From Nitrospirota bacterium (GTDB taxonomy: Bacteria > Nitrospirota > Leptospirillia > Leptospirillales > Leptospirillaceae): 64,000 bases of DNA. A program made the translations under genes and the position numbers. The stretch spans positions 1 through 64,000 of the forward strand of contig JAMCWM010000003.1 of NCBI GenBank assembly GCA_023481175.1, written 5' to 3'. The notes under the pieces are model-generated. The model was not told the origin of the DNA. It saw nothing but the letters and a program-made list of their open reading frames with translations, and did not search any database. The stretch's first letter is position 1. Each line of letters opens with the position of its first letter. This document shows positions 17,224-37,217 of this stretch, one piece after another.

Positions 17224-17481
17224 ATGGGAAAGAAAGTTTGGTTTGTCCTCTGCCTGGTTATGCTCAGCACTTTTACATCCATCACTTCTGTTTTGTCCTG
17301 TGATGACTGGGTTCTTTGGAGAGTGGACGAATCCAGTCATCAGCGCGCCCTTCGAAAAGATGCGTTCGAAACAAAGGCGAAATGCCGTATCGGAAAAGAG
17401 ATGCAAGAAGCTTCCGATGCCGAACTTTCTCCTACAGAACGATATTCTTATGTCTGTTTGCCCTCTTCCATGAAACCGTGA
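17224..17481 (+). CDS. Small exported 'WxLW...CLP' protein, copy A
   Basis: 85 residues from the ATG at 17224 with AAAGGAG upstream. A signal peptide (MGKKVWFVLCLVMLSTF...) ends near 'SVLSC'. The mature part has 'DDWVLWRV', then 'AFETKAKC' and near the C-terminus 'YSYVCLP'. The same three motifs occur at 33341-33664 and 36834-37217, always tail-to-tail with a VirB9-N-like gene; here the stops are 2 bp apart. The two conserved Cys probably form a disulfide. Function unknown. Confidence 0.65.
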   Translation: MGKKVWFVLCLVMLSTFTSITSVLSCDDWVLWRVDESSHQRALRKDAFETKAKCRIGKEMQEASDAELSPTERYSYVCLPSSMKP

Positions 17482-17483
17482 AG

Positions 17484-18095
17484 CTAGTGTTCACTCACAA
17501 AGACCAGCGTATTGAACGGTTCCGGATGGGAGGGGGACGCTTCTTTCAGCGTGAAGGAATACATACGCTCCCCACTTGCATCAATAAGGATCATGTTTGT
17601 GGAGTGACTCACTCCTTGTTTTCTCGGAGAACGAACGACGAGGTGCCGAATGTTTTTCCTTCTGAATTCGAGGCCTCTGCCGGTCCGTACCCTCCAGGAA
17701 GAGTCCCCGACAATGATATTTCTGAATTGAAAATTCACTTCGATATCCGTCGCGAATCCCGGTCGAACGACAATGACGGGAGGTCGACCTCCGGCCAGAT
17801 GAATCCGGAGCGCCTTTTCTTTCCAGACGCTCTTCCGATAAGGGGGTAATAAAGTCGGGGGGGCCTCCGCCGGAAAGGGAGACCCACCATTTTCCGCCTG
17901 TTCGATTCGCTCCTTGTTCAGGAGGTCGATCTTTTGTCGATACTCCGGATTGTCCGAGACGCCCGCTTTCGGGTCCGGGAGGGGCGTCGCGGAAGAAGCG
18001 GGGGACCGATCAGGGGAGCACCCCATGAGTGCAACGCCGGCAAGCAGAACAATTCCCAAATAACCTGCGATCATCGAATTTCTGAATGCCGACAT
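17484..18095 (-). CDS. Lipoprotein with VirB9-N-like domain, copy A
   Basis: 203 residues from the ATG at 18095 (GGAGAGAAGC upstream). The lipobox LMGC gives a lipidated Cys at about residue 26. Next comes '[19 protein letters not shown]', identical to a stretch of the DotG-like protein at 38951. The C-terminal domain ('PPVIVVRPGFATDIEV...NIIVGDSSW...') has the beta pattern of the N-terminal domain of VirB9/TrbG. It looks like a chimera of a DotG linker and a VirB9-like domain, probably exposed in the periplasm. Role unproven. Confidence 0.6.
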   Translation of the reverse strand: MSAFRNSMIAGYLGIVLLAGVALMGCSPDRSPASSATPLPDPKAGVSDNPEYRQKIDLLNKERIEQAENGGSPFPAEAPPTLLPPYRKSVWKEKALRIHLAGGRPPVIVVRPGFATDIEVNFQFRNIIVGDSSWRVRTGRGLEFRRKNIRHLVVRSPRKQGVSHSTNMILIDASGERMYSFTLKEASPSHPEPFNTLVFVSEH

Positions 18096-18121
18096 GCTTC
18101 TCTCCATCTCATGATTGATAA

Positions 18122-18304
18122 TCACTTAAGTCTCCAAAGCGCGAGGAGAATTCCTCCTCCCAGCACGATCCCGGAAATCAGGATCGTCAGAACCATCGGG
18201 ATGCCAGGAAGATCCTCCCTGGGATCTGTGCAAGGTCCACAGACGGGTTCCCGACTGGGGAACCCACATTTGTTGCAAGGGCCGATTTCAGGGGTGTCTT
18301 TCAT
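18122..18304 (-). CDS. Small zinc-binding single-pass membrane protein (60 aa)
   Basis: The ATG at 18304 overlaps the 3' end of the Lar-like gene by 17 bp. CNKC...CGPC in the first 26 residues is a zinc ribbon, followed by one membrane helix 'MVLTILISGIVLGGGILLAL' to the C-terminus. Function unknown. Confidence 0.55.
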   Translation of the reverse strand: MKDTPEIGPCNKCGFPSREPVCGPCTDPREDLPGIPMVLTILISGIVLGGGILLALWRLK

Positions 18305-18476
18305 TCCATGCCTTCGCCGCACCTTCCGTTGTCCGGAAAGAATTCGTCGTCGCAAGACAGGCATCACACTGGACATAGAACGGGTTTTCCGGATACTTTG
18401 TGCTTTTGACAATATCGGCCGCATCTTCCCCGCAAAAGGGACATTCCTTGAGTTCGGCTGTTTTCGGGATGTTCAA
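18288..18476 (-). CDS. Lar-like (restriction alleviation) zinc-finger protein
   Basis: 62 residues from a TTG with GAGAGGAG 6 nt upstream. 'ECPFCGEDA', 'VQCDACLA' and the final 'AAKAWNER' match the Lar family of small phage and plasmid proteins, some of which alleviate type I restriction. A longer frame would run into the CRISPR array and is unlikely. Function by family only. Confidence 0.65.
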   Translation of the reverse strand: MNIPKTAELKECPFCGEDAADIVKSTKYPENPFYVQCDACLATTNSFRTTEGAAKAWNERHP

Positions 18477-18522
18477 CGTGTTCTCCTCTCTAGCTGAACC
18501 GCTTGGGCTACCGGGTCCACTT

Positions 18523-19044
18523 GTCTCAGTCACCAAGCCACTGAGCTGGCGTTGAAAACCTGCCCCAGGAAAATTGTCACCAGTGACGGACAGTCTCAGT
18601 CACTAGGCCACTGAGCGGGCTTTGAAAACTCGATCCGGGCACTTTTCGGGGCTGAGTATTTTGCAGTCTCAGTAACCAGGCCACCGAGCTGGCTTTGAAA
18701 ACCATGAGGGTGTGTACTCAAGTCTCAGTAACGAAGCCACTGAGCAGGCTTTGAAAACCTGGATGGCGTTGAAATACGGGGGGTGGATCAAATGTCTCAA
18801 TAACCAAGCCACTGAGCAGGCTTTGAAAACTAGGCACGAGCAGGCGAACGAAAGGATGGACACATGTCTCAATAACCAAGCCACTGAGCAGGCTTTGAAA
18901 ACCCGTTACCGCCTGGACACTCCCTTGTGGATTGACGTCTCAATAACCAAGCCACTGAGCAGGCTTTGAAAACCCGTTACCGCCTGGACACTCCCTTGTG
19001 GATTGACGTCTCAATAACCAAGCCACTGAGCAGGCTTTGAAAAC
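18523..19044 (-). CRISPR. CRISPR array: 8 repeats of 37 bp, 7 spacers
   Basis: Repeats start at 18523, 18593, 18666, 18722, 18794, 18866, 18937 and 19008. Spacers are 33, 36, 19, 35, 35, 34 and 34 bp. On the minus strand each repeat begins GTTTTCAAAGCC and contains the stem AAGCC/GGCTT. Repeats 5-8 are identical, while 1-3 carry substitutions, so the young (leader) end faces the effector gene and transcription is probably leftward. Spacers 6 and 7 are identical. No cas1 or cas2 is seen in the window. Confidence 0.95.
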
Positions 19045-19190
19045 CCTCTTCTTCTTTCTTCTTGCCGGGAAAGGCTTTTTTCCAAATATTTCGCGAACCC
19101 CTTCTTCGCCCTCGTCTCTTCCCGTTCCGATTCCCTCTTTCCGGGCTCGGACGCTCATGTTTTTGAACCTTTCGCGAACCTTCCGGTTTT
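19045..19190 (-). promoter_or_regulatory. Probable CRISPR leader
   Basis: 146 bp between the effector stop and the youngest repeat, without an ORF of its own. It holds two copies of TTTCGCGAACC (19089-19099 and 19170-19180), 81 bp apart. Leader status is inferred from repeat degeneration at the opposite end of the array. No clear -10/-35 was identified. Confidence 0.5.
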
Positions 19191-20972
19191 TTACGCTTGC
19201 TTTCCCTTCGCGGATTCTGCCGCCATCTGGATGTTTCTGGCCGCGTTTTCGTCCTGGTCCCAGACGGTCCCGCATCCGTCGCAGGTCCAGACCAGATCCT
19301 CCGGCCGACCGGAATTTATGTGAAGACACTGCCGGCAGGCTCTCGTGGTGTCCGCGGCCGGGATCCGGACGATTTCCGTTCCCGTTTTGGCCGCCTGGAT
19401 CCTGATCCAGTTCCGGAGATCCGAAACGGAGGCCCGCACCCGGTTCGCCCGGGCCGGGGCCGGCTGGTCCGTCTTCTCTCCCTCCGGAGTTTCGATTTTC
19501 ACGACCTCCCGAAGGTCGAAGTCCTCGATGCCGACGAGCGAATAGTCCTGGACGATCCTCCCGGCCTCGTTCCGATAGAAATCGGTCCTCTGCGCCGAAA
19601 GCTTCTCCCGCAGATTGTCCATCTCCTGCGTCATGCGCTTGTTGTTCTTCCTCCAGGTTTCGAGGGCCGCAAGGAGGTCCGGACGGAAATCCCCGTGCCC
19701 GTCCCGCCAGGCGAGCACCGAGCCGGCGAGCTTCCGGGAGGAGACCATCGGAGACTTGAGATGGTTTGCGAACCTCTCCCGGATTCCTTCCGGGAAGGAT
19801 CCGGAAATTTCCGGCCAGCGGGCCCGGAACCAGGTCATCAACCGACCCTGCTCCTGATCGATCCGGCTTTTCAGATCCTCGACATGATCCATCCGACGGA
19901 GCATTTTTTCCGGGAGAACGATGTGCCGCACGCTCTCGGCGTCGGCAACGCTTGCCACCCGGAGGCCTCCGGGAACGAGCCGCCATCCGAGATCGATGCC
20001 GCAGATTCCGGGTTTGCCGGGAACGATCCGGGGAGATCCGGATCTCGTCCCCGTCAGGGTCGCGGTCCAGCGGAACTCCGTGCCGACCCGCTTCCGGGAG
20101 ACGACCAGCTGCTTGATCAGGACATCGGAAGGAATTTCCCGATGCAAAATCATGGGAAACGTGAGCATCCTCCGAACGTATTTTCCGTTTGCGTCCTTCG
20201 TTGTGGTGACCGTGATCCGGAGCTTCGTTCGGGATGCTTTTCGTCTCTCTCCCCGGGAAGGATGATGGAATGCGTCCAGGGAAACGGGGTCGGCCGACAC
20301 GATCGCCTGCGGATCTCCCGAGAAAAAATCGGATACCGTCATCCCTCCCTGGATCTGGCAGGTAAACCGTCCGGTTCCGTCGAAGGAATGGAACCTGAGT
20401 TCGGCTCCGGTTTTAAGCGCCCTTATCCGCGCCGTCTCGTAGGAGGCACAGACTGCGTTGTAGTTTCCCCACCAGAGCCCCGATGCGTTCCGAGCGCACT
20501 TGACGGCTTCCCGACGCTTTTGTTCGAGCGCATCCAGTTCGGGCTTCATCCGTTCCCGGGTCTCCTTCCGTTTCTCCTTCGCCAGAACGGCTAGGCGCCG
20601 TATTTCCGGCCTTATTTCGGCGATCCGGAGGTCCTGGGCGGAGGTATCGACCCCGGCCTTTTTCCGGGCCGCCTGACGGAGGAATTTCTTTTCGGCGATC
20701 AGAGACTCCTTTTCGGCCATCAGAGCCGAAAGGGCTTCTTCGATTCCCCGGAGTTCCGGATCCGAGCTGGTCAAGCGGAAGTAGGCTTCCCGATGTTTTT
20801 TTTCGATCTCGACAAGCGTATTCCAGAGCCTGTTCTGGAGCCACAGGTGTTCCTGACAGTCCTGATCCCAGTCAAGAGGAGCCAGAAGCCCGTATTGCCG
20901 GACGAGGACATGTTTTTCTTCCGGTTCTTCCGTTGCATCCGTTTCGGACGTCGCACCAAGTTTTTCAGGCAT
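19191..20972 (-). CDS. Miniature type V CRISPR effector (TnpB/Cas12-like)
   Basis: 593 residues from the ATG at 20972, which has GGAAAGGA 7 nt upstream; a longer frame starts with TTG at 21017 inside repeat-derived DNA (numbers below count from there). RuvC-I 'GICGIDLGWR' (D342), RuvC-II 'LVGIEDFDL' (E498), a four-Cys zinc finger (C561, C564, C579, C582) and RuvC-III 'DQDENAARNI' (D589) are all intact. It is larger than TnpB (about 400) and in the size range of Cas12m/type V-U effectors, with a charged helical N-terminal half. It lies next to the array and in the same orientation, without adaptation genes. The subtype cannot be fixed by eye. Confidence 0.85.
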   Translation of the reverse strand: MPEKLGATSETDATEEPEEKHVLVRQYGLLAPLDWDQDCQEHLWLQNRLWNTLVEIEKKHREAYFRLTSSDPELRGIEEALSALMAEKESLIAEKKFLRQAARKKAGVDTSAQDLRIAEIRPEIRRLAVLAKEKRKETRERMKPELDALEQKRREAVKCARNASGLWWGNYNAVCASYETARIRALKTGAELRFHSFDGTGRFTCQIQGGMTVSDFFSGDPQAIVSADPVSLDAFHHPSRGERRKASRTKLRITVTTTKDANGKYVRRMLTFPMILHREIPSDVLIKQLVVSRKRVGTEFRWTATLTGTRSGSPRIVPGKPGICGIDLGWRLVPGGLRVASVADAESVRHIVLPEKMLRRMDHVEDLKSRIDQEQGRLMTWFRARWPEISGSFPEGIRERFANHLKSPMVSSRKLAGSVLAWRDGHGDFRPDLLAALETWRKNNKRMTQEMDNLREKLSAQRTDFYRNEAGRIVQDYSLVGIEDFDLREVVKIETPEGEKTDQPAPARANRVRASVSDLRNWIRIQAAKTGTEIVRIPAADTTRACRQCLHINSGRPEDLVWTCDGCGTVWDQDENAARNIQMAAESAKGKQA

Positions 20973-20997
20973 TCCCGCATCCTTTCCTTCATTCAGG

Positions 20998-21086
20998 CTG
21001 AGCAGGTTTAAAAACAATTGGATGTTGGAGGGTTGCCGGGAGTGGCAACGTCTCAGTCACCAAGCCACTGAGCTGGCGTTGAAAAC
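20998..21086 (-). CRISPR. Mini-array in the effector 5' leader: repeat, 33-bp spacer, half repeat
   Basis: A full repeat (21050-21086) is identical to the terminal array repeat at 18523-18559. It is followed leftward by a 33-bp spacer-like segment (21017-21049) with the hairpin GTTGCC/GGCAAC. Then comes GTTTTTAAACCTGCTCAG (20999-21016), matching the first half of a repeat with one gap and one mismatch. The unit ends 26 bp before the effector ATG. Confidence 0.8.
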
Positions 21087-21093
21087 CATTCTT

Positions 21094-21267
21094 CTACCTC
21101 ATTCCGGCCAACAGCGTTCCGGGATGCCCGTGAAGGGCCATTCCGACCCCCATCAGGACCAGTCCCGCCGCGGCCCAGAACCCGGCAAGTACGATCCCCG
21201 GGGAGGCCTGGCCGGCCCGCTCATGGACCGCTTCCGCATGGACGACCGTCTCGTCTTGGGCGTTCAC
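21094..21267 (-). CDS. Small single-pass membrane protein (57 aa)
   Basis: GTG start with GGAGG 4 nt upstream; it overlaps the stop of the HTH gene (GTGA). A 27-residue polar N-terminus is followed by one helix 'GIVLAGFWAAAGLVLMGVGM'. It ends 8 bp from the solitary CRISPR repeat, so read-through transcription could reach the mini-array and effector. Function unknown. Confidence 0.5.
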   Translation of the reverse strand: MNAQDETVVHAEAVHERAGQASPGIVLAGFWAAAGLVLMGVGMALHGHPGTLLAGMR

Positions 21268-22064
21268 CGGGCCTCCGCCAGGACGACGGAGATCACGTCG
21301 ATCCGGAGAACCCTGGGATTTTTCGCGAGCGCCTCGAGGATTTCGTCGGCCTTCCCGGATCCGGAAATTTCTCCCCCGGCCTCGGAAAGCCCGGGAACGG
21401 GAGGAACCGCCGGCGGATCCCCGATCTTGCAGACATAGAGTTTTTTCGGATCCTCCCTCCGGGACCTATCGGGCGGCCGTTCTGTTTGACCCGGGGAAGG
21501 CGGCGTGACCGGAGGGTTCACGGACGCCGGCAGATCCGCCGGCCCGTCCCCGTCCATCCATCCTTCCGGAAGGCCCGCCGCCCGTTCGATTTTCCGGGCC
21601 TGGGGGTCTCCCATCGAGAATTTTCCCCGGAGAACGTTCCCCATCGTGGCGGGAGAGAGCTCCGGAAACTTCTTTGCGGTCCGGTACGGTCCTCCGAACC
21701 GGTCCGTCAGGATCTTCAGGCGTTCGCGGCGGATTGCCGCGAGATCCGTCGGAGTTGTTTTTCGGCTCACGGGGACCTCCCTATTCTTCGGGTTTTGTCT
21801 GCGCTCCTTTTGGTAGGGCGGCGCCTCTTCGTCGTTTCCGAAATCCCCGATCCGTTCTTCCTCCAGGGGGTAGTCCGTTGCCTTCCGGCCTCCAAGGCCT
21901 CCGAGGACCGCATGGAGCCGGTTCCTGACCTTTCCGATCTCTCCGTTTTCGTCCCGGCGAGGCGGATCGTTCGGAGACCGTCCGCAGTTCAGGCATTTGC
22001 CGGGGGAGCTATCGGGAAGGTCCCTGTCCCTGACCACCAGCCCTCCGCAGGCCGGACAGGTCAT
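21264..22064 (-). CDS. Zinc-ribbon plus lambda-repressor-like HTH protein
   Basis: 266 residues from an ATG with GGGGAAGGAAA. N-terminus: CPAC...CLNC zinc ribbon (3-33). Residues about 105-170 carry a Cro/CI-type HTH ('LTDRFGGPYRTAKKFPELSPATMGNVLRGKFSMG'-like, given here as key parts RTAKKF and MGNVLRGKF). The C-terminus is Pro-rich. A GTG at 21770 with GGGAGGT just upstream is in frame, so the HTH part may also be made as a separate 168-residue protein. Probably a local regulator of the CRISPR-side operon. Confidence 0.6.
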   Translation of the reverse strand: MTCPACGGLVVRDRDLPDSSPGKCLNCGRSPNDPPRRDENGEIGKVRNRLHAVLGGLGGRKATDYPLEEERIGDFGNDEEAPPYQKERRQNPKNREVPVSRKTTPTDLAAIRRERLKILTDRFGGPYRTAKKFPELSPATMGNVLRGKFSMGDPQARKIERAAGLPEGWMDGDGPADLPASVNPPVTPPSPGQTERPPDRSRREDPKKLYVCKIGDPPAVPPVPGLSEAGGEISGSGKADEILEALAKNPRVLRIDVISVVLAEAR

Positions 22065-22528
22065 TTTCCTTCCCCTTTTCCCGGGTTTTTTCCGGCCTTT
22101 CCGGACGAGTTCCCGATTTCCTGTCCCTTTTTCCTTCTCCCGACGGCCCGCTCGACCGGCCCCCTGGGCGGAGACCCCGGCTTTCGCGGGGGAAGGGAGT
22201 GAAGAAGGCGGGAGGAGTGAACGAATAAGCGGTGGAGAGGCGTTCCCGGCCGTCCGAACCGGACCAGGACCTCGACCATGCCGGAGGGACCGGTCCCGAC
22301 CACGGAGCAGGGGACGAGCCGCCCCGGAAGACGGATTGCGGCCGGACGATCCGACCCCTTTCTGAAAGAAACCATTCCGGATCCTTTCGTTGTCTCCCCC
22401 TCGCAGGGGCCGTCCGCATGCAAGGGACTTCCGACGTCCCCGAACGGCCCCCGGAAGGGGGAGAGCCTTTTCGATTCCTGTACGACCCGCCTTCCGTTCC
22501 TCTCCCTGCCGGTCCATTTATCCGGCAC
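22061..22528 (-). CDS. Hypothetical basic protein (155 aa)
   Basis: Its TGA overlaps the ATG of the zinc-ribbon/HTH gene, the same coupling seen elsewhere in this operon. The GTG start at 22528 has no good ribosome site, so the start is uncertain. Rich in Arg, Gly and Pro; no family seen. Other frames over this GC-rich stretch are also open, hence the low confidence. Confidence 0.35.
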   Translation of the reverse strand: MPDKWTGRERNGRRVVQESKRLSPFRGPFGDVGSPLHADGPCEGETTKGSGMVSFRKGSDRPAAIRLPGRLVPCSVVGTGPSGMVEVLVRFGRPGTPLHRLFVHSSRLLHSLPPRKPGSPPRGPVERAVGRRKKGQEIGNSSGKAGKNPGKGEGK

Positions 22529-22579
22529 TTGCTGGACGACCCGATGGTGGGGGGCGCGGTGTAGCGTGAAAAAATACTA

Positions 22580-22618
22580 CAACATTATGTTTAATAAGTC
22601 AACAAAATGTTTTTGTTG
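22580..22618. promoter_or_regulatory. Candidate repressor operators upstream of the leftward CRISPR-side operon
   Basis: CAACATTATGTT (22580-22591) and CAACAAAATGTT (22600-22611) lie in an AT-rich gap; the second also forms the 8-bp inverted repeat CAACAAAA/TTTTGTTG (22600-22618). The second 12-mer recurs exactly, in reverse, at 30392-30403 in the CI/cro gap. Confidence 0.6.
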
Positions 22619-22755
22619 GAATCCAGACACAAAAAATCCCCTGGGAGGGGGAAGAAGGGGAGGTGGGAAGCGAGTATTTAGAAATCCGGCTCCTATAATA
22701 AATATGGCAGGGATTTAACTTCCAATTAAAAATAGAAGAAGAAGGAGGAATCCAG

Positions 22756-22998: not shown

Positions 22999-23005
22999 AA
23001 ACATT

Positions 23006-23034: not shown

Positions 23035-23172
23035 ATTTTAGGAAGGAGTTTCCAATATACCATTTGGGATGGTGGAAGAAAACGGGTCAAAATCGTTAAA
23101 TTGATGGGTCAGCACCATGATATCCGACATAAATAATCAAAATATTCAGAGAATTTCTGTTTTTATAGGAAT

Positions 23173-26139: not shown

Positions 26140-29100
26140 TCAGACCAATTTAGACACTCTCGGCATACGGATTAGTCTGGTATCGAGTAGTTTTAACTCG
26201 GCATCGATCTCGTCCTTCACCTTTGTGTTCCGATACATGACAGACGTATCCATCCGAGCCGAATCTTGATGACGGGAGGCGCTTAACCAGTTAAAAGATC
26301 CGATGCACATCAGCTCGGAATCCTTGATCAAAAGCTTGCTGTGGACCCTGTCTACAACTTTTACTGAAATATTCATCGACTCCAGCTTTGTCAGTGAAAC
26401 CACAAAATCGTCTCGGTCCTTTCTGCCTTCACCCTCGTTGAAATTTTTATCGGTATAGACTGTCACGGACAGACCTCTCTTGATCGCCTCTTTTAAGGAG
26501 CTTTCGAGAAATGAAATAGCCTTTGCCTTGATCCAAGGAGACACAATAATCACCTCCTTGTTTGCCGTTTTCAGAATATTTTCTAAAGCTTCGTTGTGGG
26601 ACTCCAGCGTTTTAAGGATTTTAAAATCCTCTCCCGGAGAAATCAGATCATCCCTTGAAGGCTGGACGATCGACAATTCATTGTCTGAGTTCTCGAAAAG
26701 AAACTCTGCCATAATTCCTGAAGGGCTTTTCGACTTCTCGTTGAAAATATTCATGTTCCCAAAAACGAGAAAACTGTCTTGGGCTCTCGATACGGCGACA
26801 TTCAGCATGTTCTCGTTCCTGTCAAAAAATAAGGATTGTCCGAAATCTCCTCCCGAATAGACGGAAGAGAAGATGACGATCCTCCTCTCCGCCCCTTGGA
26901 GAGCGTGGACGGTCCCGACAGTGATCTTGTGGTCGGGGCCGAGTTCACCGGAAATCATCGAAGAAACAAGTCGGCTCTGCGAAGCAAACGGCGTCACGAC
27001 CCCAACGATCTCGTGGATCGGGACATCATAATGACTTTCGAGTTTTCCTTTGTTTTCGGAGATCCATGAGGCGATGGCCCTTGCTTCCGAGGGATTGGAC
27101 CGGCTTCCTCCGCTTTTTTCAGACTTTCCGACAATGTGGGCATATCCCCAATAAGGAAGAATCCGGTCTTCGATTTCTCCCTGCCTGGGAACGAGTTTCC
27201 CGCCGTAACATAATCGGTTGCAGTACTGGATGATGGGGTCTGCGCATCTGCGATGCTCGTAGAGGTACATCCCTTTTTCGAGTTTCCTGTCGTAATGGAA
27301 TGGACTCGCCGCATGGGCCATCCGCATGACGGATCCCATCGATGCGGAGCGGCCGTTCCCCTTCATCCGCTCGAACTCGTCCTCGGATGGTCCGTCGACG
27401 ATTCCCGACTTGAGCATGTTCCCCCTGTCGACGATCTCCCGAATCGACCAGACGGGCTCGATCTGCTTGACATCGCCCACCACCAGAGCTTTTTTCGCGA
27501 GGGAAAAAGAAGCTCCGGCAACCTCCGGCGAGACCTGTCCCGCCTCGTCGACGACAAGCAGATCAATGAAGTCGTACAGGTATTTCTTATCTCCCTCCCA
27601 TGCAGAGAAAGCGTCTGGGAACTTGTGAAAGGTCGATACGGTGCAGGGAAATATTTTTGCCCATCTCCGCCATTTCCTTTGAGTCTTTTTGACTCCCTTC
27701 GTGTCTTTCAATTGATCGTTTCCGGAGTGGATCGTCGTCTTGCACTCCTTGATCCAGGCCCCTTCCCAATAATGGGTCGCCAGCCGAAACATCCTGTACC
27801 GGAGGGTTGTATCCATCTTCCTGTCCGCATCGAGGAACGATTCGACCTTTTCGCCGAGAACCTTTCGACAATAATTCTCCCAGTCCGAAGCGGCCAACTC
27901 GAATTCCGAGATCAGGACTTTCGCCTTCTCGACAGTTTCCGAAGCGCGAATCGTTTCCTGCTCTTTTTTTGAACAAAGGATTTTCAGGGAATACTCGATC
28001 GCATCGATGTCCATCTTCGGCAGAACATCAAGGGGAATTCCTTTCGACTCAATGAACGCCTGTATCCGGTATCGCCGTTTCTTCCGGACGGGCGGCAAAA
28101 AGGAAAGAAGTCCGTACCAGAACGGTTCATCGGCGAGATAGCCGATCCATGATCGCAGCCATTCCCTGGCGATCTTCAGGCTGTCGGAAACGTCTGAAAG
28201 TTCTTCAGTTTTCTCTCGGAGAAATTTTTCATGATCGTTCCCGGCAACTTTTTCGAGTGTCGTCCGCTTTTTTGCGCGGATCACCCACAGGGAACGCAAC
28301 GTCTCCATTGCTGAGCGAGCCTCCCGGATTTCCTTGCGGATCAAGGAAAGGGCATCCTCGACAGTCGAATCCTCCTTGGCGGAGAAGGTAGCCATAAACC
28401 GTTCAAGGAAGACTCTTTCTGCCTCCAGAACCCTCTCGGACTTTTCCATTTCTTCGATGGCCCCGACAAGGTTGTATCCCTTCAGGAGAGCATCGTTCTT
28501 TTTCGCCTCCGAAGAAAAATAAAGCCCGTAGCTCCCGTTGAAGGACTTCGGCAACCAGCGGCCCTTGAGCGGGTCCGATTCGGCAACTCGGACTGCTCCG
28601 AAACTCTCGATCACATTCGTCACGGCTTGGTTGTTGGTGGAGGCCACCGCGATCACGGGCGGGGAGGGAGCATCGTCATCGCTCAGAAGGGGCTTGACCC
28701 AGAGAGTTGCGACGATTCCCTGGATGAGTTTCGTTTTTCCGGTACCCGGAGGACCGTTGACCGGGAGGATCCCCCTGTCACCGAGCGAGAGAAAATGGGC
28801 CAGCGCGTCCCTTTGGGCATCGGCCAGAGAATGATCCGGATCCATGTGGCCAACGTGCGAGAGTGAGAAATCTTCCGAGGCAATTGCCGGCAGGATGATC
28901 CGATCTTCATCGGAAAGCGTTTCATCGAGAAGCGGCGTGTCGGGATCTTTCGATTTCAGATCGTCATAGAGAGCAATGATCGATTTGGCTTCGGAACTTG
29001 ACTCCCGGACGGTGACCAATACCTTGTCGTCGAGCTTCTTGAACCTGGTGGAATCGAGTCCTGTGCAAACAGCTTTTTCCATCTCTTCAATGTAAAGAAG

Positions 29101-29619
29101 AAGACGTTTCCATTTTTCCGGGTTCGATTTGGATGCCAATTCGAGATCAAATGGATTTTTCGTCAGAAAATCGTCGAGGGTTTGGATTTCTCCGACAACG
29201 ATTCCCTTGTCCGGATAGACGGGATCCAGAATGTCCCGGGGAACGAGCGGAGAATCTCCGACAAAGAGATTCCCTTTTCGGTCCATCGAAACGTTGACGG
29301 AAATGGTAGAAAACCGTTGGACGCTTCCGCCTGGCCCAACGGTGTGCTCGGTCGTTGTCTGATAGAGGTTCGGATAGACGAGCAATGGAGCAAATTCCTG
29401 GTCGGAGGGAATTTTCGCTTTGGCAAAAAGAGAATGCACAGCGGTCTTGTCGCGTAAACGACCGTCAATCCACTCCGCTTTCGTCAACGTCAGATACTTC
29501 TCCTCTTTTCCCTCGATCGGCTTTCCTCCCTCTTTATCGGGAAGGATCCCGCTCGCCAGAGTCCCATCGACAAGGGAATTTCTCCAGTAGTGGATATACC
29601 GAAGTGTCAATTTTTGCAT
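26140..29619 (-). CDS. SF1 helicase-PLD nuclease protein (Mokosh type II-like defence protein)
   Basis: 1159 residues. After a 280-residue N-terminal domain comes a split superfamily 1 helicase: Walker A 'NGPPGTGKTKL' (about 288-298), coiled-coil insertion, Walker B 'LLVVDEAGQ' (about 686-694), 'TVGTVHALQGAERRI' and 'NVAVSRAQD'. The C-terminal domain is a phospholipase D-like nuclease with one HxK motif ('VHSKLLIKD', about 1090) and 'GSFNWLS'. A COG1112-type helicase fused to PLD is the layout of MkoC, the single-gene type II Mokosh anti-phage system. It stands alone next to the repressor; assignment is by architecture only. Confidence 0.75.
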   Translation of the reverse strand: MQKLTLRYIHYWRNSLVDGTLASGILPDKEGGKPIEGKEEKYLTLTKAEWIDGRLRDKTAVHSLFAKAKIPSDQEFAPLLVYPNLYQTTTEHTVGPGGSVQRFSTISVNVSMDRKGNLFVGDSPLVPRDILDPVYPDKGIVVGEIQTLDDFLTKNPFDLELASKSNPEKWKRLLLYIEEMEKAVCTGLDSTRFKKLDDKVLVTVRESSSEAKSIIALYDDLKSKDPDTPLLDETLSDEDRIILPAIASEDFSLSHVGHMDPDHSLADAQRDALAHFLSLGDRGILPVNGPPGTGKTKLIQGIVATLWVKPLLSDDDAPSPPVIAVASTNNQAVTNVIESFGAVRVAESDPLKGRWLPKSFNGSYGLYFSSEAKKNDALLKGYNLVGAIEEMEKSERVLEAERVFLERFMATFSAKEDSTVEDALSLIRKEIREARSAMETLRSLWVIRAKKRTTLEKVAGNDHEKFLREKTEELSDVSDSLKIAREWLRSWIGYLADEPFWYGLLSFLPPVRKKRRYRIQAFIESKGIPLDVLPKMDIDAIEYSLKILCSKKEQETIRASETVEKAKVLISEFELAASDWENYCRKVLGEKVESFLDADRKMDTTLRYRMFRLATHYWEGAWIKECKTTIHSGNDQLKDTKGVKKTQRKWRRWAKIFPCTVSTFHKFPDAFSAWEGDKKYLYDFIDLLVVDEAGQVSPEVAGASFSLAKKALVVGDVKQIEPVWSIREIVDRGNMLKSGIVDGPSEDEFERMKGNGRSASMGSVMRMAHAASPFHYDRKLEKGMYLYEHRRCADPIIQYCNRLCYGGKLVPRQGEIEDRILPYWGYAHIVGKSEKSGGSRSNPSEARAIASWISENKGKLESHYDVPIHEIVGVVTPFASQSRLVSSMISGELGPDHKITVGTVHALQGAERRIVIFSSVYSGGDFGQSLFFDRNENMLNVAVSRAQDSFLVFGNMNIFNEKSKSPSGIMAEFLFENSDNELSIVQPSRDDLISPGEDFKILKTLESHNEALENILKTANKEVIIVSPWIKAKAISFLESSLKEAIKRGLSVTVYTDKNFNEGEGRKDRDDFVVSLTKLESMNISVKVVDRVHSKLLIKDSELMCIGSFNWLSASRHQDSARMDTSVMYRNTKVKDEIDAELKLLDTRLIRMPRVSKLV

Positions 29620-30799: not shown

Positions 30800-30800
30800 C

Positions 30801-31736: not shown

Positions 31737-32191
31737 ACAAGTATGAATTTGCACAGCTGCTTGATCCGCTTCTGACGGCCTTTGAAAAAACCATGGCCGA
31801 AAAGCTCATGAATCTCTGGTTTGAGGAATGCAAGGATTTTCAAGGATGCGAGATCAAATCCGCTGTCCGGCACTTTCTCGATTCTCCCTCCCAGAAGTCT
31901 TTTCCCAGGGTCGGAGAATTCAAGGCCTTTCTTGGATCCTCGGGTCGATCTTCCGAAGCGGCTCCTTCAGGCAAGTTGCATTCCTGTTCCCGATGCTCGC
32001 ACGGGTTCTGTTCGGTGACGAGATGGGTTGGACAATCCCCGGTTCCGGTCCGCTATACATTCCGCTGTTCCTGTCCTTCGGGCAGTCATTTTCCCGGGCT
32101 TCCGCCGGTGTCTCCCTTCGAGCAGACGGAGAAAGAGGCTCGTGCATCGGGACGTGAGAACTGGGAGAAAAGGGAAAAGCTGATTTCTTAA
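31733..32191 (+). CDS. Putative helicase loader / replication accessory protein
   Basis: 152 residues; the ATG overlaps the initiator stop. The N-terminal 80 residues are helical ('YEFAQLLDPLLTAFEKTMAEK', 'AVRHFLDSPSQKSFPRVGEFKA' in parts), like phage loaders that follow initiator genes. A cluster CSRCSHGFC and later cysteines may bind zinc. The role is inferred from position (lambda P analogue). Confidence 0.5.
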   Translation: MNKYEFAQLLDPLLTAFEKTMAEKLMNLWFEECKDFQGCEIKSAVRHFLDSPSQKSFPRVGEFKAFLGSSGRSSEAAPSGKLHSCSRCSHGFCSVTRWVGQSPVPVRYTFRCSCPSGSHFPGLPPVSPFEQTEKEARASGRENWEKREKLIS

Positions 32192-32200
32192 AAACTAGAG

Positions 32201-32220
32201 ATGGTATTTGAAAATACCAA
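32201..32220. promoter_or_regulatory. Operator-like palindrome, copy 1
   Basis: ATGGTAT-N6-ATACCAA, one base short of the perfect palindromes at 41594 and 58636. It sits 20 bp upstream of the ATG at 32241. Confidence 0.6.
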
Positions 32221-32240
32221 CTAAGGTCAGGAGAAACATC

Positions 32241-32432
32241 ATGCGCATCAAACGATACTGCGGTCACGAGGAGGTCATCAAAGATCCTGAAACAATAGAC
32301 AAGTTTCTGATGGAGCGCGGCCGGAAGTGCGAAAAATGCCGGACCATCGGAACTCCGAAATCCCGGAAGGCGATCGGGGAAGAACAGCTTCCCCGGCCCA
32401 TGGCGGTGACTATGGACATCTACCGGGAGTGA
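32241..32432 (+). CDS. Small basic protein (63 aa)
   Basis: ATG with AGGAG 7 nt upstream. 'RYCGHEE' and 'CEKCRTIG' could bind zinc. First gene after the operator-like palindrome, ahead of the secretion genes. No family recognised. Confidence 0.55.
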   Translation: MRIKRYCGHEEVIKDPETIDKFLMERGRKCEKCRTIGTPKSRKAIGEEQLPRPMAVTMDIYRE

Positions 32433-32500
32433 GAGGGGGAGGCGAAGAGTTCGCCTCCCTGAATGCGGGTAATCCGCACAATCGAAAAAGGAGGTTTGAC

Positions 32501-32797
32501 ATGGGTGGACAGACATTCGGATCGATGGCAAATGGCATCACGACCGGGACTCAGGGGATCGGCGCCCTGATCATGTATGTGTTCGCGCTTGTGGGGGTCA
32601 TTCTGACCGGTATGGGGATCCATGGGTTCTATGCCCATTCCAAGAACGAGGGCCGCCCGGGCGGAATAAAGATTGCGGCCGTGCAGACGATCGTCGGGAT
32701 CATTCTGGCCGGAGGCCTGATGTATTTCATCAACTCCGGCTCGATGACGATGGGAGCGGGCACGTCGACCACGCTTCAAAATGTGGTCAACCCGTAA
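32501..32797 (+). CDS. Small two-helix T4SS membrane protein (VirB2/IcmD-like)
   Basis: 98 residues with two hydrophobic helices (about 22-44 and 63-83) around a short basic loop 'AHSKNEGRPGG'. Size, topology and the Gly/Ala-rich tail fit VirB2-type pilins or the IcmC/IcmD/DotV group of Dot/Icm systems. AAAGGAGG precedes the start. Exact orthology not resolved. Confidence 0.55.
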   Translation: MGGQTFGSMANGITTGTQGIGALIMYVFALVGVILTGMGIHGFYAHSKNEGRPGGIKIAAVQTIVGIILAGGLMYFINSGSMTMGAGTSTTLQNVVNP

Positions 32798-32867
32798 TGG
32801 CGGGCCAAGAAGTCCTTCCCGGAGAGGGGCTTTTCATCGGGGCAGAAATGGAAGAAGGGAGAAAGAC

Positions 32868-33356
32868 ATGAAGGGATTTTTTTTGAAGGCGGGAAAGGGA
32901 TTGGTCTTTGGCGGAATGCTGTCGTGTCTGGTCTCCGGACCGGCGATCGCGGGAGAGACACCTTCTCTCCCGCCAGGGTTCTCGGCGGCTCCGCCGATTC
33001 CAGGTATAGGGGGCCGTTATCTCGGAACCGAACAGATTCTCCAGGTCGATAGGAAAAGCACGCCTGTCATTCGGTGCAAAAGCGGCTACGACTCGGTTCT
33101 GCTTTTCCCCGGAAGAAAGGTTCGAAAGATTTTTCTGGGCGGGAACTGGTGGGTGGGAGCGGTCACGAGAGCGGGGGGTGAGGGGGTTGTGGTCATCGAT
33201 CCTCCTGTTTCGCCTCAGGTGGATTCCAATCTTGTCGTGTTGTTCGACCAGGGAGTGATGATCTTCCGGCTGAAAACCGTATCTCCGGACAAGCCGTTTA
33301 TGGCGCGCACGATCGTCCGGATGGTGGCGAACGGTGGAGATCAGCGTCCGAAGTAA
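32868..33356 (+). CDS. Exported VirB9-N-like protein, copy B
   Basis: 162 residues with a signal peptide ending at 'GPAIAG'. The domain 'TPVIRCKSGYDSVLLFPGRKV', 'IFLGGNWWVGAV' and 'SNLVVLFDQGVMIFRLKTVSP' has the strand pattern of the VirB9/TrbG N-terminal domain but lacks the C-terminal domain. It aligns along its length with copy C at 36509. Its 3' end overlaps by 16 bp the convergent 'WxLW...CLP' gene. Probably periplasmic. Confidence 0.65.
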   Translation: MKGFFLKAGKGLVFGGMLSCLVSGPAIAGETPSLPPGFSAAPPIPGIGGRYLGTEQILQVDRKSTPVIRCKSGYDSVLLFPGRKVRKIFLGGNWWVGAVTRAGGEGVVVIDPPVSPQVDSNLVVLFDQGVMIFRLKTVSPDKPFMARTIVRMVANGGDQRPK

Positions 33357-33664
33357 AAAGGCCGGACTCGGGCCGGTAGGCAGACGTAGTAAAAAGGCCA
33401 TCCCTTTGAATAATTCGGCCGGTCCATCGCCATGTTGGATAGTTTCTTCTCGCAGTGATTTCTCGAAGAGAAAGCAGAAACGGCCAATGCTTCGTCGAAC
33501 GGAAGAGGGGTGGATGGACTTTGGGGATTTGGGTACTGGATAGCGTTGTAATTGAGGACTTCCTGCCAGAGAACCCAAGAGTGGGAATCGTCGGCGGAAG
33601 CGAGAAGAGGGGAAGCGAAAAACATGCCAAGAACGAAGATCGGAACGGAAAGTTTTTTCGACAT
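33341..33664 (-). CDS. Small exported 'WxLW...CLP' protein, copy B
   Basis: 107 residues; ATG with GGAG. Signal peptide ending near 'PLLASA'. The mature part has 'HSWVLWQEV', 'AFSSRNHCEKKL' and 'YYVCLP'. Convergent with, and overlapping, the VirB9-N-like copy B. Paralogue of 17224-17481 and 36834-37217. Confidence 0.7.
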   Translation of the reverse strand: MSKKLSVPIFVLGMFFASPLLASADDSHSWVLWQEVLNYNAIQYPNPQSPSTPLPFDEALAVSAFSSRNHCEKKLSNMAMDRPNYSKGWPFYYVCLPARVRPFYFGR

Positions 33665-33754
33665 GGAATCTCCTCTGGTTGGATCGTGCGCGCCGGCCCG
33701 ATTTTACCGGGCGGCGGACGACCTGTCCAGAAAACCGCGGAAAGGAAAACGATC

Positions 33755-34735
33755 ATGAAACTCTTTTCATCCTGGAGAACGCGTTCTTCGGGAACGCTGT
33801 TTCGACCGGCGGCCAGATCATTGGCCGCCGTCCTGGGGCTGGCTCTCCTCTCGACTCTCTCCGCCTGCCACAAAGCCGCGCAGTTGCCTCCGGCGGCAAA
33901 GAACGCCGGTCTCATGAAAAGCGCGAGCCTCCTGATCGGCGCGCTGTCGAACCACACCGCCTCCGTGGTTCGGCTTTACCCGGGACTGGACGGCCTGGTG
34001 GGCGTGATCTTCAAGAATTCGTCCGGTTCCATGCGGATCGTGTGGATGACGCCTCATGGCGCGGCGATTATTCCGGGGCCCGTGATCACGGCGGCAGGCC
34101 AGGACCTGACCGGGCTCGCCCAACAGGCGATCGACGCCGTGTCGAAAACGCTTCAAACCAAGCCGTCCGGCTTTCCCGGTGGAATCGGGGGAGCCACAGG
34201 GGAGCGGGGGCAGAATCCCGCGATCCAACCCGCCCCGGCGGCCCAGGGAAAGAAAATGTCCGCTGACGATTTTCTCCTGATGTCGCGGCATCTCAAGTCC
34301 ATCGCCCTGGGAACCGGAAAGCGTGAGGTCTGGATCTACTTCGACCCGAACTGCATCTTCTGCAACCGCCTGTGGGAGGAGATGAAACCGTATGGCAGGG
34401 AAATCACCGCACACTGGATCCCGGTGGGATTTCTCAAAAAAGACGACTCGCTCAAGAAAGCGACGGGGATCCTCCAGGCGAAAGATCCCGTCCGGGCGCT
34501 CGAGGAAAACGAGGACCGGTTCGCCCGGGAAACGGAGGAAGGCGCATATCCGATTCCGGCGTCGATCGATGTCGCCTCGGAACGGGCCGTGGCGACGTCC
34601 ACGATCGGCCTCGGACAGGCGACGGGGGAGCTGGCCACGCCGACGATCGTGTTTCGGGGGACGGACGGCAAGGCCCACAGCGTGATGGGAATGCCGGAGG
34701 ACCTCCGGACTTTTCTGGCGGGGGTGAAAAACTGA
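33755..34735 (+). CDS. DsbC/TrbB-like thioredoxin-fold lipoprotein
   Basis: 326 residues. Lipobox LSAC (Cys at about 28). The C-terminal thioredoxin fold has 'YFDPNCIFCNRLWEEM' with a CIFC active site and the cis-Pro segment 'ATPTIVF'. IncI plasmids carry TrbB, a DsbC-type protein, in their transfer region. It probably shuffles disulfides in T4SS components, such as the Cys-containing exported proteins next to it. Confidence 0.8.
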   Translation: MKLFSSWRTRSSGTLFRPAARSLAAVLGLALLSTLSACHKAAQLPPAAKNAGLMKSASLLIGALSNHTASVVRLYPGLDGLVGVIFKNSSGSMRIVWMTPHGAAIIPGPVITAAGQDLTGLAQQAIDAVSKTLQTKPSGFPGGIGGATGERGQNPAIQPAPAAQGKKMSADDFLLMSRHLKSIALGTGKREVWIYFDPNCIFCNRLWEEMKPYGREITAHWIPVGFLKKDDSLKKATGILQAKDPVRALEENEDRFARETEEGAYPIPASIDVASERAVATSTIGLGQATGELATPTIVFRGTDGKAHSVMGMPEDLRTFLAGVKN

Positions 34736-34762
34736 GAAATGGAAACAGTGGGGGAGAAAAAA

Positions 34763-34933
34763 ATGGAGAGTGGCGCTTCGGAGACCAGCCGGAGCGAAAA
34801 GGAAAAAATGAGGCTCGTAGCTCTCGAATGCGAGATCTGCAACAGAAGGGTCTGGCGGATCACGGACCACTCCGGCGTCACCATCTGCGCCGAGTGCCAC
34901 CGGGACATCGTGTCCCCTCATATTCACGATTGA
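34763..34933 (+). CDS. Small zinc-binding protein (56 aa)
   Basis: The ATG at 34763 has GGGGGAG upstream; ATG at 34739 is also in frame. CEIC...CAEC with His residues at the C-terminus forms a zinc-ribbon-like site. Located between trbB-like and ssb. Function unknown. Confidence 0.55.
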   Translation: MESGASETSRSEKEKMRLVALECEICNRRVWRITDHSGVTICAECHRDIVSPHIHD

Positions 34934-34952
34934 CGCTCGAAAGGAGAACACC

Positions 34953-35330
34953 ATGTCATCGTTCAACAAAGTCATTCTCATGGGCCATCTCGTCCGGGAT
35001 CCGGAACTGCGAGTCACGGGCGGAGGCACGAACATCGGGACCTTTACGCTTGCCATCAATAATCGGGTCAAGGACGACAAGGAGAGCGTCAGCTACATCG
35101 ACTGCGTGGCCTTCGGAAAACAGGCCGATTTTGCAAAGGAGTATCTGACGAAAGGGATGCCGATCCTCATTGAGGGGCGTCTCAACCAGCAGAGGTGGGA
35201 ACAGGAGGGGCAGAAGCGCTCGAAGGTCGAGGTGATCGTCCAGACGGTCACTTTTGTCGGGCCGAAGAAAAACGGCGACAACGCTCCGGAAACGAGCGAG
35301 CCTCCCGACGGGGACATCATCGAGTACTGA
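34953..35330 (+). CDS. ssb: Single-stranded DNA-binding protein
   Basis: 125 residues with the OB-fold signature 'NKVILMGHLVRDPELRVT', 'FTLAINNR', 'YIDCVAFGKQADFAKEYL' and 'ILIEGRLNQQRW', and the acidic tail 'DGDIIEY'. GGAG upstream. Plasmid-type SSBs protect the transferred strand and support replication. Confidence 0.95.
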   Translation: MSSFNKVILMGHLVRDPELRVTGGGTNIGTFTLAINNRVKDDKESVSYIDCVAFGKQADFAKEYLTKGMPILIEGRLNQQRWEQEGQKRSKVEVIVQTVTFVGPKKNGDNAPETSEPPDGDIIEY

Positions 35331-35409
35331 TATCGAAAGTCGGTAAGGCACCATCGATCTCGCCTGTCCGAAAGAGGGGCGGGCGAGGACCATTCGGAGG
35401 AGGGGAATC

Positions 35410-35736
35410 ATGGCGGTGAGGGAATCGAGGTTTGAATTGGAGACGGGGAACACCGCTTCCGCGGAGAAAAGAACGAGGTTGGAAAATTTTATCACGGTTG
35501 GCCTCCGCGATCTCGGAATCCATCCCCGCGACATTCTGGTCGAAGGCCAGACGGTCCGGATCTTTGAGGAGTTTCTCGCGGGGAGAGAATTCCGCGTCCC
35601 GGCGGACGTCCTGTCGTCCGGAATTTCCGTGCTCCTGCAGGAGGCAGGAAAGAGAAAACGTATGGCCGACTGGTCGTTTTTCCGACAGATCGGCTATCTC
35701 GCCTGGCATGGAAGACGGGAGGGGAGAAAAGGATGA
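35410..35736 (+). CDS. Hypothetical protein (108 aa)
   Basis: GGAGGAGGGG upstream. Mixed charged soluble protein without recognised motif; its stop overlaps the next start (ATGATGG). Probably co-transcribed with the HTH gene that follows. Confidence 0.55.
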   Translation: MAVRESRFELETGNTASAEKRTRLENFITVGLRDLGIHPRDILVEGQTVRIFEEFLAGREFRVPADVLSSGISVLLQEAGKRKRMADWSFFRQIGYLAWHGRREGRKG

Positions 35737-36425
35737 TGGATAGACGAACGCTTGTGAAGGATTTGATTGCTTTGACGGGAAGATCGGCATCCTCCCTGGC
35801 GACAGAAATCGGAATAAACAGAAGCGGTGTCACTCATTGGTTAAAGCACGGAGGAACTTCGACAGGAATCGAAAAACAGAATGAACTTCTGGAAAAATTA
35901 GGGGTTTTTCGAGGATCCTTGGATCCGGATCGCGTTCACTTCTGGACATTGAAATCAGGCGGCCTCTCTTCCCTTGTCCGTATTCTTTCATGGACCGGTG
36001 GTCCGTATGAAATGTTCTTGTTCTATCTGGACGATTACGCCTTCATTTCCGACGACCGTCTCATGGCCCTTTGCGATTCCGGAAGAAAAATCCAGATTGT
36101 TTTGAGGCGGAAACTCGATCCTCTGGATCCGACGGGAGTGGGAGAGGTTCTGGATGTTCTTGTCCGCGAGGGGCTGGTTCAGTCTCCGGTTTTTCAGGCG
36201 ATTTGTCTCGGCTCCGAAACATCCGGTAGATGGATTTCAGGAAACGTTTCGGTGGAGGAATTTGACCGGATATTGGGACTGGGGGAAGGGACAACTTCGG
36301 AAGAAAAGAGTCCCTGGAGGGCCTCCATGACCTGGGAAGACTTCAACCGGGAAATGGAACGAAGGGGGCTCCGGCCGGAAGAGGCTCTGGATCTGATCGA
36401 TCGCGGAAAAGAGAGGAGCCAATGA
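35733..36425 (+). CDS. HTH regulator with a novel C-terminal domain, paralogue 1
   Basis: 230 residues. The N-terminal HTH ('SASSLATEIGINRSGVTHWLKHGG') is lambda-repressor-like. The rest contains 'LDPDRVHFW', 'MALCDSGRKIQIVLRRK' and a C-terminal 'WEDFNREMERRGLRPEEALDLI'. The gene at 57101-57811 has the same order of elements ('LDPSRIHVW', 'MALLRSGNLRVILVRK', 'WKDVEALAKKSGLTAREVLEMI'). A candidate reader of the ATGGTAT-N6-ATACCAT sites; not proven. Confidence 0.65.
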   Translation: MMDRRTLVKDLIALTGRSASSLATEIGINRSGVTHWLKHGGTSTGIEKQNELLEKLGVFRGSLDPDRVHFWTLKSGGLSSLVRILSWTGGPYEMFLFYLDDYAFISDDRLMALCDSGRKIQIVLRRKLDPLDPTGVGEVLDVLVREGLVQSPVFQAICLGSETSGRWISGNVSVEEFDRILGLGEGTTSEEKSPWRASMTWEDFNREMERRGLRPEEALDLIDRGKERSQ

Positions 36426-36508
36426 GACCGGACATCATTTTAAAAAAGATCCTGGCCGATGCCTGTCTCGACCGATTGTCGACAAAGAGAAAAAGGGAGG
36501 TCTGTCTG

Positions 36509-36934
36509 ATGGGATTTTTTCCTGGGAAAAGTTTTTTTTGGTTTTTGTTTATTGCATCTGTGGTTGTCGTATCGTTTTTTAAAACGGGGAGTAAAACTTT
36601 TGCCGGCGACGGCATGAATTTCGCCGTGAATTCCTTTGCTCCGGAAAATCCGGGAAAGATCCCATGTCGATTCAATCATCTGACCGATATCGTGGTTTTC
36701 GAAAAGGTAAAACGTGTCGTTTTGAGCGATCCCGCCGATTTCAAAATCGAGATCGTCAAGGGAAAATCCCGTTTGCACCTGGTCGTCATGCCCCTAAAAG
36801 AATCGGCATCGTCGGATCTGTTCATTTTTGGAGTCAATCGTGCTCATTATTTGAGGATGAAGACGGTGCCACCGGGACAACGTTATGTGACCCGTGTCGA
36901 GATTGGGGCGAGTCGATCGGCTCCACGCCCATAG
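36509..36934 (+). CDS. Exported VirB9-N-like protein, copy C
   Basis: 141 residues from the ATG at 36509 (GGAGG upstream), starting with a signal-anchor; an upstream ATG at 36422 overlapping the HTH stop is also possible. The domain 'KIPCRFNHLTDIVVFEKVKRV', 'VVMPLKESASSDLFIFGVNR' and 'RMKTVPPG' matches copy B strand by strand. The 3' end overlaps the convergent 'WxLW...CLP' gene by 101 bp. Confidence 0.6.
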   Translation: MGFFPGKSFFWFLFIASVVVVSFFKTGSKTFAGDGMNFAVNSFAPENPGKIPCRFNHLTDIVVFEKVKRVVLSDPADFKIEIVKGKSRLHLVVMPLKESASSDLFIFGVNRAHYLRMKTVPPGQRYVTRVEIGASRSAPRP

Positions 36935-37217
36935 GAAGGCAATGATAGCCATGTTTTTTAGACCCTTGCCCGTAAATGGTTGGTGGATGTCTGGGAATGT
37001 GTGACAGGCACGATTTTTTCGACCGGAAAGCATCCATGGCATATGCGACAGGGTTTTGCGGATCTTGTCTGATTTTCCAGAGAATCCAATGGTGTTTCGG
37101 CTTTGAAATAGCTTCCGGTCGCAGGGTCTGGTCTTCGGCCCGGGCGAGATCAAAGGCCGGCATCTGGAAAACGAAGGCCAGAACAACAAAGGAAAAGATT
37201 CGTGACGGTCGTTTCAC
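36834..37217 (-). CDS. Small exported 'WxLW...CLP' protein, copy C
   Basis: 127 residues from a GTG with GAGG upstream. Signal peptide ending near 'LARAED'. 'HHWILWKI', 'AFRSKKSCLSHI' and 'YHCLP' are the family motifs; a tail of about 32 residues after CLP is unique to this copy and lies in the overlap with copy C of the VirB9-N-like gene. Confidence 0.6.
   Translation of the reverse strand: MKRPSRIFSFVVLAFVFQMPAFDLARAEDQTLRPEAISKPKHHWILWKIRQDPQNPVAYAMDAFRSKKSCLSHIPRHPPTIYGQGSKKHGYHCLPMGVEPIDSPQSRHGSHNVVPVAPSSSSNNEHD

Follow-up and report, generated by a model that had tools for sequence, protein, structure and literature searches.

A conjugative element integrated in the genome of a Nitrospirota bacterium carries three copies of a convergent gene pair, each predicted to encode an exported, stand-alone domain of the periplasmic ring of type IV secretion systems (T4SSs) together with a small exported protein. 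The window analyzed is a stretch of 64,000 nucleotides, bases 1-64000 of contig C28 (JAMCWM010000003.1; 103,060 bp), from a 2.3-Mb draft genome of the Leptospirillum family (GCA_023481175.1). We conclude that the pair is a real, repeated, and probably dispensable accessory module of an element of the type IVB (T4B) kind and that its small-protein family is unnamed. As for its function, we tentatively favor, with a probability of about 0.38, a role as an accessory module of an IncI/Dot-Icm-type channel in which the pair silences the channel or excludes transfer. We rank this reading ahead of a structural role, hitchhiking, classical exclusion, and a toxin-immunity role.

The three pairs lie tail to tail at 17.2-18.1 kb (copy A), 32.9-33.7 kb (copy B), and 36.5-37.2 kb (copy C), all inside the element. 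In copy A, the small exported protein (WVLW...C...YVCLP) is encoded at 17224-17481 on the + strand and the ring-domain lipoprotein, with the lipobox LMGC, at 17484-18095 on the - strand (longest open reading frame [ORF] to 18125), with 2 bp separating the stop codons. In copy B, the gene for the exported stand-alone VirB9-N/DotH ring-domain protein (32868-33356, +) overlaps that of the small exported protein (33341-33664, -) by 16 bp. In copy C, the gene for the exported stand-alone VirB9-N ring-domain protein (36509-36934, +; longest ORF from 36422) overlaps that of the small exported protein (36834-37217, -; GTG start) by 101 bp. These coordinates confirm the spacing and the overlaps given in the original prediction. 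Export signals, judged by eye only, were also present as predicted, as a signal peptide or a lipobox, and plausible ribosome sites, likewise seen by eye, precede all six starts. Directly after copy B lies a gene for a DsbG/DsbC-like protein of the thioredoxin fold (33755-34735, +), whose lipobox was again judged by eye, in agreement with the DsbC-like lipoprotein gene that had been noted there. Ring genes B and C are co-directional with the transfer genes and adjoin the DsbG-like, lytic transglycosylase (SLT), DotH, and DotG genes. Small genes B and C are antisense to the surrounding transfer genes.

The ring-domain assignment is carried mainly by structure prediction. The copy B domain was modeled with AlphaFold2 from an alignment with copies A and C, and the model had a predicted local distance difference test score (pLDDT) of 76 and a predicted template modeling score (pTM) of 0.70. 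In a Foldseek search of the PDB, all 10 matches with E values of ≤0.001 were T4SS core-complex chains, including TrwF/VirB9, Xanthomonas citri VirB9, DotH, CagX, and F-type chains (E values between 5.5e-8 and 3.3e-5). The VIA Z scores against T4SS chains were 10.8-12.7 over 100-110 residues, compared to 7.1 for the first unrelated row. On this model, the copy B domain has the VirB9 N-terminal/DotH periplasmic-ring fold, and the VirB9-N-type domain of the original prediction is upheld. The three ring-domain proteins are 141, 162, and 213 amino acids long and end after the ring domain. Because they are so short, we conclude that the VirB9 C-terminal outer-membrane-cap domain is absent, as had been claimed.

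Compared to known ring proteins, the domain is alike in fold to the N-terminal domain of VirB9/TrwF/CagX, which belongs to the I-layer or periplasmic ring (about 100 residues; VIA Z, 11.9-12.7). The element's proteins differ in lacking the C-terminal domain, in being exported alone, once as a lipoprotein, and in a sequence that falls under the Pfam cutoff. Copy C matched Pfam CagX (PF03524) with an E value of 1e-4 for the whole protein (22.6 bits) and 2.9e-5 for the domain (24.4 bits), below the curated cutoff of 34.2, and copies A and B did not match this family. The ring part of DotH/IcmK of T4B systems is similarly alike (VIA Z, 12.3-12.4). However, the stand-alone proteins had no match to the DotH/IcmK model (PF12293) at an E value of ≤1, and the element has a separate full-length DotH. 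Searches of PDB sequences with the ring-domain proteins returned nothing sensible. When the ring domain was compared by hhalign to 400 six-frame segments and 8 named proteins, three DotH proteins ranked 3, 9, and 10 of 408.

The small proteins of copies A, B, and C are 22-37% identical to one another. Held-out hidden Markov models (HMMs), searched against 1,679 six-frame segments here and in the ring-domain tests given below, recovered small protein A from B and C at rank 4 (E value of 3.3e-4) and B from A and C at rank 5 (6.2e-4). Small protein C was the weakest of the three, recovered from A and B at rank 8 with an E value of only 0.05. The ranks above the held-out copies were taken by the model's own members and mostly by Nitrospirota homologues, the latter outscoring some copies of the element. 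Nine columns are invariant across seven sequences of the family, and the two cysteines are kept in all seven. Judged from these alignments, the three small proteins are homologous and form one family with a W-V-L-W and C-x-P motif frame, each probably with one disulfide. The predicted relatedness and the two conserved cysteines therefore hold, the former least firmly for copy C. The small proteins had no match in Pfam or NCBIfam at an E value of ≤1, and their two matches in PHROGs were at chance level (E values of 0.14 and 0.25). A fold model of the small protein was set aside (pLDDT, 65; pTM, 0.50); its best Foldseek E value was 0.39, its best VIA Z score was 4.0, and it had no PDB match at an E value of ≤0.001.

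The distribution in relatives was examined in a family sample of 21 genomes, including the element's own genome (G000), G001, G003, G004, and G013, the last being of the same genus. The small protein occurs in two of these, with three copies in G000 and one in G004, and the stand-alone ring domain occurs in the same two genomes. All four stand-alone ring-domain genes found in the family have a convergent small gene. The G004 locus has the synteny of copy B, with a pilin-like gene, the ring gene, the small gene with the 16-bp overlap kept, and the DsbG-like gene; the two pair proteins of copy B are 62% and 61% identical to those of G004. Copies A and C were not found in G004. Thus, the inference of the original prediction that three independent copies imply a functional pair is suggestive only, with copies A and C having no orthologue in the relatives searched. 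In G013 (86% complete), neither pair protein was found in the genome, although a related element with relatives of DotH, DotG, the DsbG-like protein, SLT, DotC, DotD, and DotB is present. G003 has a 4.2-kb fragment only and was uninformative. Plasmids had no match for small proteins A and B or ring proteins A and C (small protein C was not searched there), and IMG/VR viral contigs had none for the small proteins, ring protein B, or DotH. A search of genome contigs with DotH gave three loci, the third of which (L039) has relatives of DotH and DotG only. The titles and abstract openings listed by the literature searches described neither a stand-alone VirB9-N protein nor such a pair, which does not prove their absence.

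The pair genes also differ from the core of the element in composition. The GC content at third codon positions (GC3) was 0.45-0.64 for the six pair genes and 0.70-0.77 for 11 of 12 further genes of the element that were measured; the exception is a regulator-like gene adjoining copy C (0.53). Because this composition is unlike that of the core genes, and because no pair was found in G013 despite its related element, we regard the pair as accessory rather than core. The three pair regions had no DNA similarity to one another by blastn, indicating that the pairs are not recent duplicates. Among eight genes compared to G004, the ratio of replacement to silent change (pN/pS) was highest for ring gene B (0.55); small gene B had a ratio of 0.37 and the other six genes ratios of 0.22-0.39. 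By these ratios, both copy B genes look to be under selection. In front of ring gene C, a stretch of 24 codons (PDII.KIL.DACLD; 36428-36499) has 67% identity (E value of about 1e-5) to the start of a small gene of G004 (L010, 12722-12793) that lies downstream of the G004 DotG gene. This stretch may mark the boundary of a cassette insertion, or it may be a remnant or a leader.

These data bear on whether the pair is simply a structural accessory, in which free ring domains join the periplasmic ring as extra subunits and change its stoichiometry or stability, while the small protein further stabilizes the channel in the manner of the species-specific Dis proteins of the Dot/Icm cap, with no antagonism. 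The domain has the same fold as the ring proteins, and ring genes B and C lie amid the transfer genes in the same orientation. Added subunits are reported for expanded systems, and Dis2 is small and disulfide rich (PMC8486379; PMC12857230). However, in every copy the small gene and its partner are on opposite strands, the codon ends are AT rich and unlike those of the core genes, none of the genes compared has a higher pN/pS than ring gene B, and G013 has a related element and no pair that we could find. We consider a purely structural role somewhat unlikely.

In the silencing or exclusion reading that we favor, the larger protein would be a free, exported periplasmic-ring domain of the VirB9-N/DotH-N fold. 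Structurally, DotH is homologous to VirB9-N, and the DotH-DotG ring arrangement resembles that of VirB9 and VirB10 (PMC8486379). VirB9-N domains dominate the periplasmic-ring layer, and expanded T4SSs carry extra subunits of unknown function (PMC12857230). Because DotH and VirB9-N make up that layer, an exported free ring domain can plausibly meet the ring. Lacking the outer-membrane domain, it would be able to meet the DotH/DotG ring and unable to complete the cap. The small exported protein would be its periplasmic partner and would counter assembly of the ring or opening of the channel while transfer is off or on contact with a related donor. The free ring domain would then serve the small protein as a cognate docking site or decoy. 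Since small genes B and C are antisense within a presumed transfer operon, transcription of the operon would run against them, and the small protein may be produced mainly in carriers that are not transferring. We infer that the cognate proteins bind, that the channel is their target, and which way they influence it.

Several observations weigh against this interpretation. Copy A is located apart from the run of transfer genes. Promoter-like sites precede small gene B (33729-33701) and small gene C (37338-37310) and account for two of the three found in the stretch, compared to 1.6 expected, which is near chance; no such site was seen upstream of small gene A. Neither pair protein has a convincing match to a known exclusion protein in Pfam, NCBIfam, or PHROGs. 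The single fold model was built on copy B with A and C aligned. The held-out HMMs of the ring domain were nonsignificant, with copy C at rank 5 (E value of 1.1), A at rank 5 (1.3), and B at rank 14 (3.6). Homology of the three ring domains is thus not carried by these models and rests on the CagX match of copy C, a VirB9-like gene of G001, the hhalign ranks of DotH, and the fold model. The G001 gene was the only one other than the copies and the G004 orthologue that a three-domain ring model found in the family sample at an E value of ≤0.1 (E value of 0.009). It encodes a longer VirB9-like protein behind a VirB8-like gene and matches CagX just under the cutoff (1.4e-7). Its top rank in the hhalign comparison is circular because the gene was found with the ring model itself, while the DotH ranks are not. 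Identity to the copy B domain is 25% for A and 19% for C over trimmed domains, which were aligned in place of full-length MAFFT alignments that misplaced the copy B ring domain. Profile comparisons of copy B's pair gave weak matches (E values of 0.0046 against C, 0.017 against A, and 0.33 against DotH).

The remaining point against it concerns the small protein outside the family. A wider model of the small protein found three further convincing proteins in 395 genomes of the phylum, two in G205 and one in G136, and a search of 48 genomes of the family that bears these homologues returned the same three only. They keep W-V-L-W, DAF, both cysteines, and C-x-P, have a signal peptide by eye, and correspond to no named family of the libraries searched. 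Judged on these motifs, the small-protein family is wider than the pair. Whereas the element's small proteins have a ring-domain neighbor, the ring model found none in the 12-14 kb around the three G205 and G136 genes; its 20 matches with E values of ≤20, from 12 sources, all lay elsewhere. The convergent or nearby ORFs scanned at these loci belong to other families or to no family, and among the element's ORFs of ≥100 amino acids, only the small protein and the integrase had matches there. Because it is present without a recognized ring partner at all three Nitrospirota loci, the small protein probably has a function independent of the pair. The ring copies fail to find each other by HMM, so that the model may have overlooked a diverged ring gene at these loci. 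The homologue searches are also not exhaustive, because a first phylum search with a narrower model recovered only one of the three proteins. In the phylum search with the wider model, 12 of the 16 genomes that gave a match did so only at E values of 0.008-0.1; the G006 locus, the one of these that was inspected, does not belong to the family, and the other eleven were taken as noise. In the phylum of G416, 398 genomes scanned with the small protein gave one weak partial match with an internal stop (G667; E value of 0.0037). Integrase pieces lie beside one G205 small gene (L017, 2821-6457; contig C35) and are at most 31% identical to the element's integrase. Because of this nearby integrase, that small gene may sit on an island.

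The co-occurrence check proposed with the original prediction thus gave a divided result, in that all four stand-alone ring genes have the small gene whereas the three outside homologues have no ring neighbor that was found. This result would suit hitchhiking, with the small protein as a general Nitrospirota envelope protein kept beside an accessory ring gene with no joint function, and small protein A is indeed closer to the Nitrospirota homologues (E value of 8.6e-5) than to copy B (0.056). However, all three copies of the element and the copy in G004 share the partner and the convergent order, even though the element's copies have diverged so far. Three such adjacencies would arise by chance with a rough probability of 1e-6 (a simple shuffle assuming 95 genes), and we consider hitchhiking unlikely. 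The loci without a recognizable partner also count against the exported toxin-immunity role that had been suggested, although less firmly because the ring model can miss diverged members. In such a role, the pair would be delivered to the periplasm, or guarded there, in the manner of bacteria-killing T4SSs. A small secreted protein with a neighbor, three times repeated, would be in keeping with that role, and one precedent is a T4B system whose delivered effector has cognate immunity (PMC9519443). However, the putative partner has a channel-ring fold, and PADLOC gave no match for the two proteins scanned, the copy A ring protein and the copy B small protein. A toxin-immunity role is therefore disfavored and, in our view, highly improbable.

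Exclusion proteins are among the known systems closest to the pair. ExcA and Eex are entry or surface exclusion proteins, and exclusion proteins diverge fast. The pair differs from them in having no family match, in being a two-protein module, and in that small genes B and C are antisense to transfer genes. TraS and TraT, which are membrane or exported proteins, act on the transfer of related elements, and exclusion is common in conjugative plasmids (PMC12624023). In a classical surface or entry exclusion system, the small protein alone would block related elements in the recipient, with the ring domain as a bystander. The small protein is exported and varies between copies, and several copies could cover several types of incoming element. 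However, it lacks a match in the family libraries other than the chance-level ones in PHROGs, and around its homologues none of the element's transfer proteins has a match. We consider classical exclusion quite improbable. Dis1-3, the species-specific cap proteins of the Dot/Icm system, are likewise accessory to an expanded T4B system (PMC8486379). In contrast to these, the element's proteins form convergent pairs in three copies, and the likeness is one of role and not of sequence comparison.

In the copy A lipoprotein gene, a segment of 105 bp (17890-17994, -) is 92% identical to part of the DotG gene 21 kb away (39139-39243), with five silent and three replacement changes. By this identity, the copy A lipoprotein gene is a chimera that acquired its DotG piece fairly recently. 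In DotG, the segment would lie just behind the membrane anchor and, by topology, in the periplasm. Taken further, the silencing or exclusion reading would make the pair an exchangeable conjugation-control cassette of a ring domain and a small disulfide plug, with the tail-to-tail arrangement causing the plug to be repressed in donors by transfer-gene transcription and released in resting carriers. The element would have collected such cassettes, three here and one in the relative, and by acquiring its DotG piece copy A would have turned into a lipoprotein decoy of the channel. We consider this full scheme distinctly unlikely. How conjugative elements shut their channel or refuse relatives is understood for few systems. 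Ring domains that stand alone, each with its own small partner, would provide concrete, small, testable proteins for this question in environmental bacteria. The pair suggests that the VirB9/DotH ring domain is usable apart from the cap domain.

The element itself is delimited by a 50-bp direct repeat of the 3' part of a tRNA-Gly gene, with attL at 14289-14338 (+) and attR at C28 101589-101638, beyond the window. This repeat at both ends defines one integrated element of about 87.3 kb, of which 37.6 kb lies beyond the window, and places all three pairs in one element as originally predicted. The phage-type integrase (14362-15378, -) adjoins the tRNA and is 64% identical to that of the related element in G004. 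The transfer genes include SLT (37362-37793, +), the full-length ring protein DotH/IcmK (37750-38967, +; Pfam DotH, 3.4e-81), DotG/IcmE of the VirB10/TrbI type (38951-40327, +), a TrwB-type coupling protein (46155-47438, +), a TrwC-type relaxase (47275-50412, +), DotD (58845-59405, +), DotC/TraI (59389-60222, +), and a DotB-like ATPase (60440-61825, +), which has a T2SSE match and is named DotB from its position. Beyond the window, the element also encodes a secretin and a second T2SSE-type ATPase (PilQ-like by position). A PilV-like protein with a shufflon N-terminal constant region is encoded at C28 73255-74457 (L040, 9255-10457; Pfam, 2e-22); no convincing shufflon repeats were found behind its gene. 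Because the element encodes this set of DotC, DotD, DotH, DotG, DotB-like, coupling, relaxase, and PilV-like proteins, it is an integrative conjugative element of the IncI/T4B kind (MPF_I, Dot-Icm type), and the T4SS setting claimed for the pairs is borne out by the Pfam matches of its Dot-type genes. DotA and DotO of the element were not identified by Pfam. A near-complete Dot/Icm set is reported for Leptospirillum ferriphilum Sp-Cl (PMC5880901).

The element also carries several genes of other kinds. A restriction alleviation protein Lar (Pfam, 6e-11) is encoded at 18288-18536 (-), upstream of the copy A lipoprotein gene and on the same strand. A compact type V effector adjoins copy A (19191-21017, -; PADLOC Cas12u1, 3e-104; Cas12f, 8e-104) and is flanked by a CRISPR array, with eight 37-bp repeats (≤7 mismatches) on one side (18523-19044) and a single repeat on the other (21050). 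The spacers, compared to the element and the other loci analyzed, gave self matches and short chance matches only. Mokosh is a defense system, and a large helicase-like protein (26140-29619, -) matched its PADLOC model MkoC with 1,153 bits. Behind the relaxase gene, a type II methyltransferase, a Vsr endonuclease, and a type II restriction enzyme-like protein are encoded at 50515-53717 (+).

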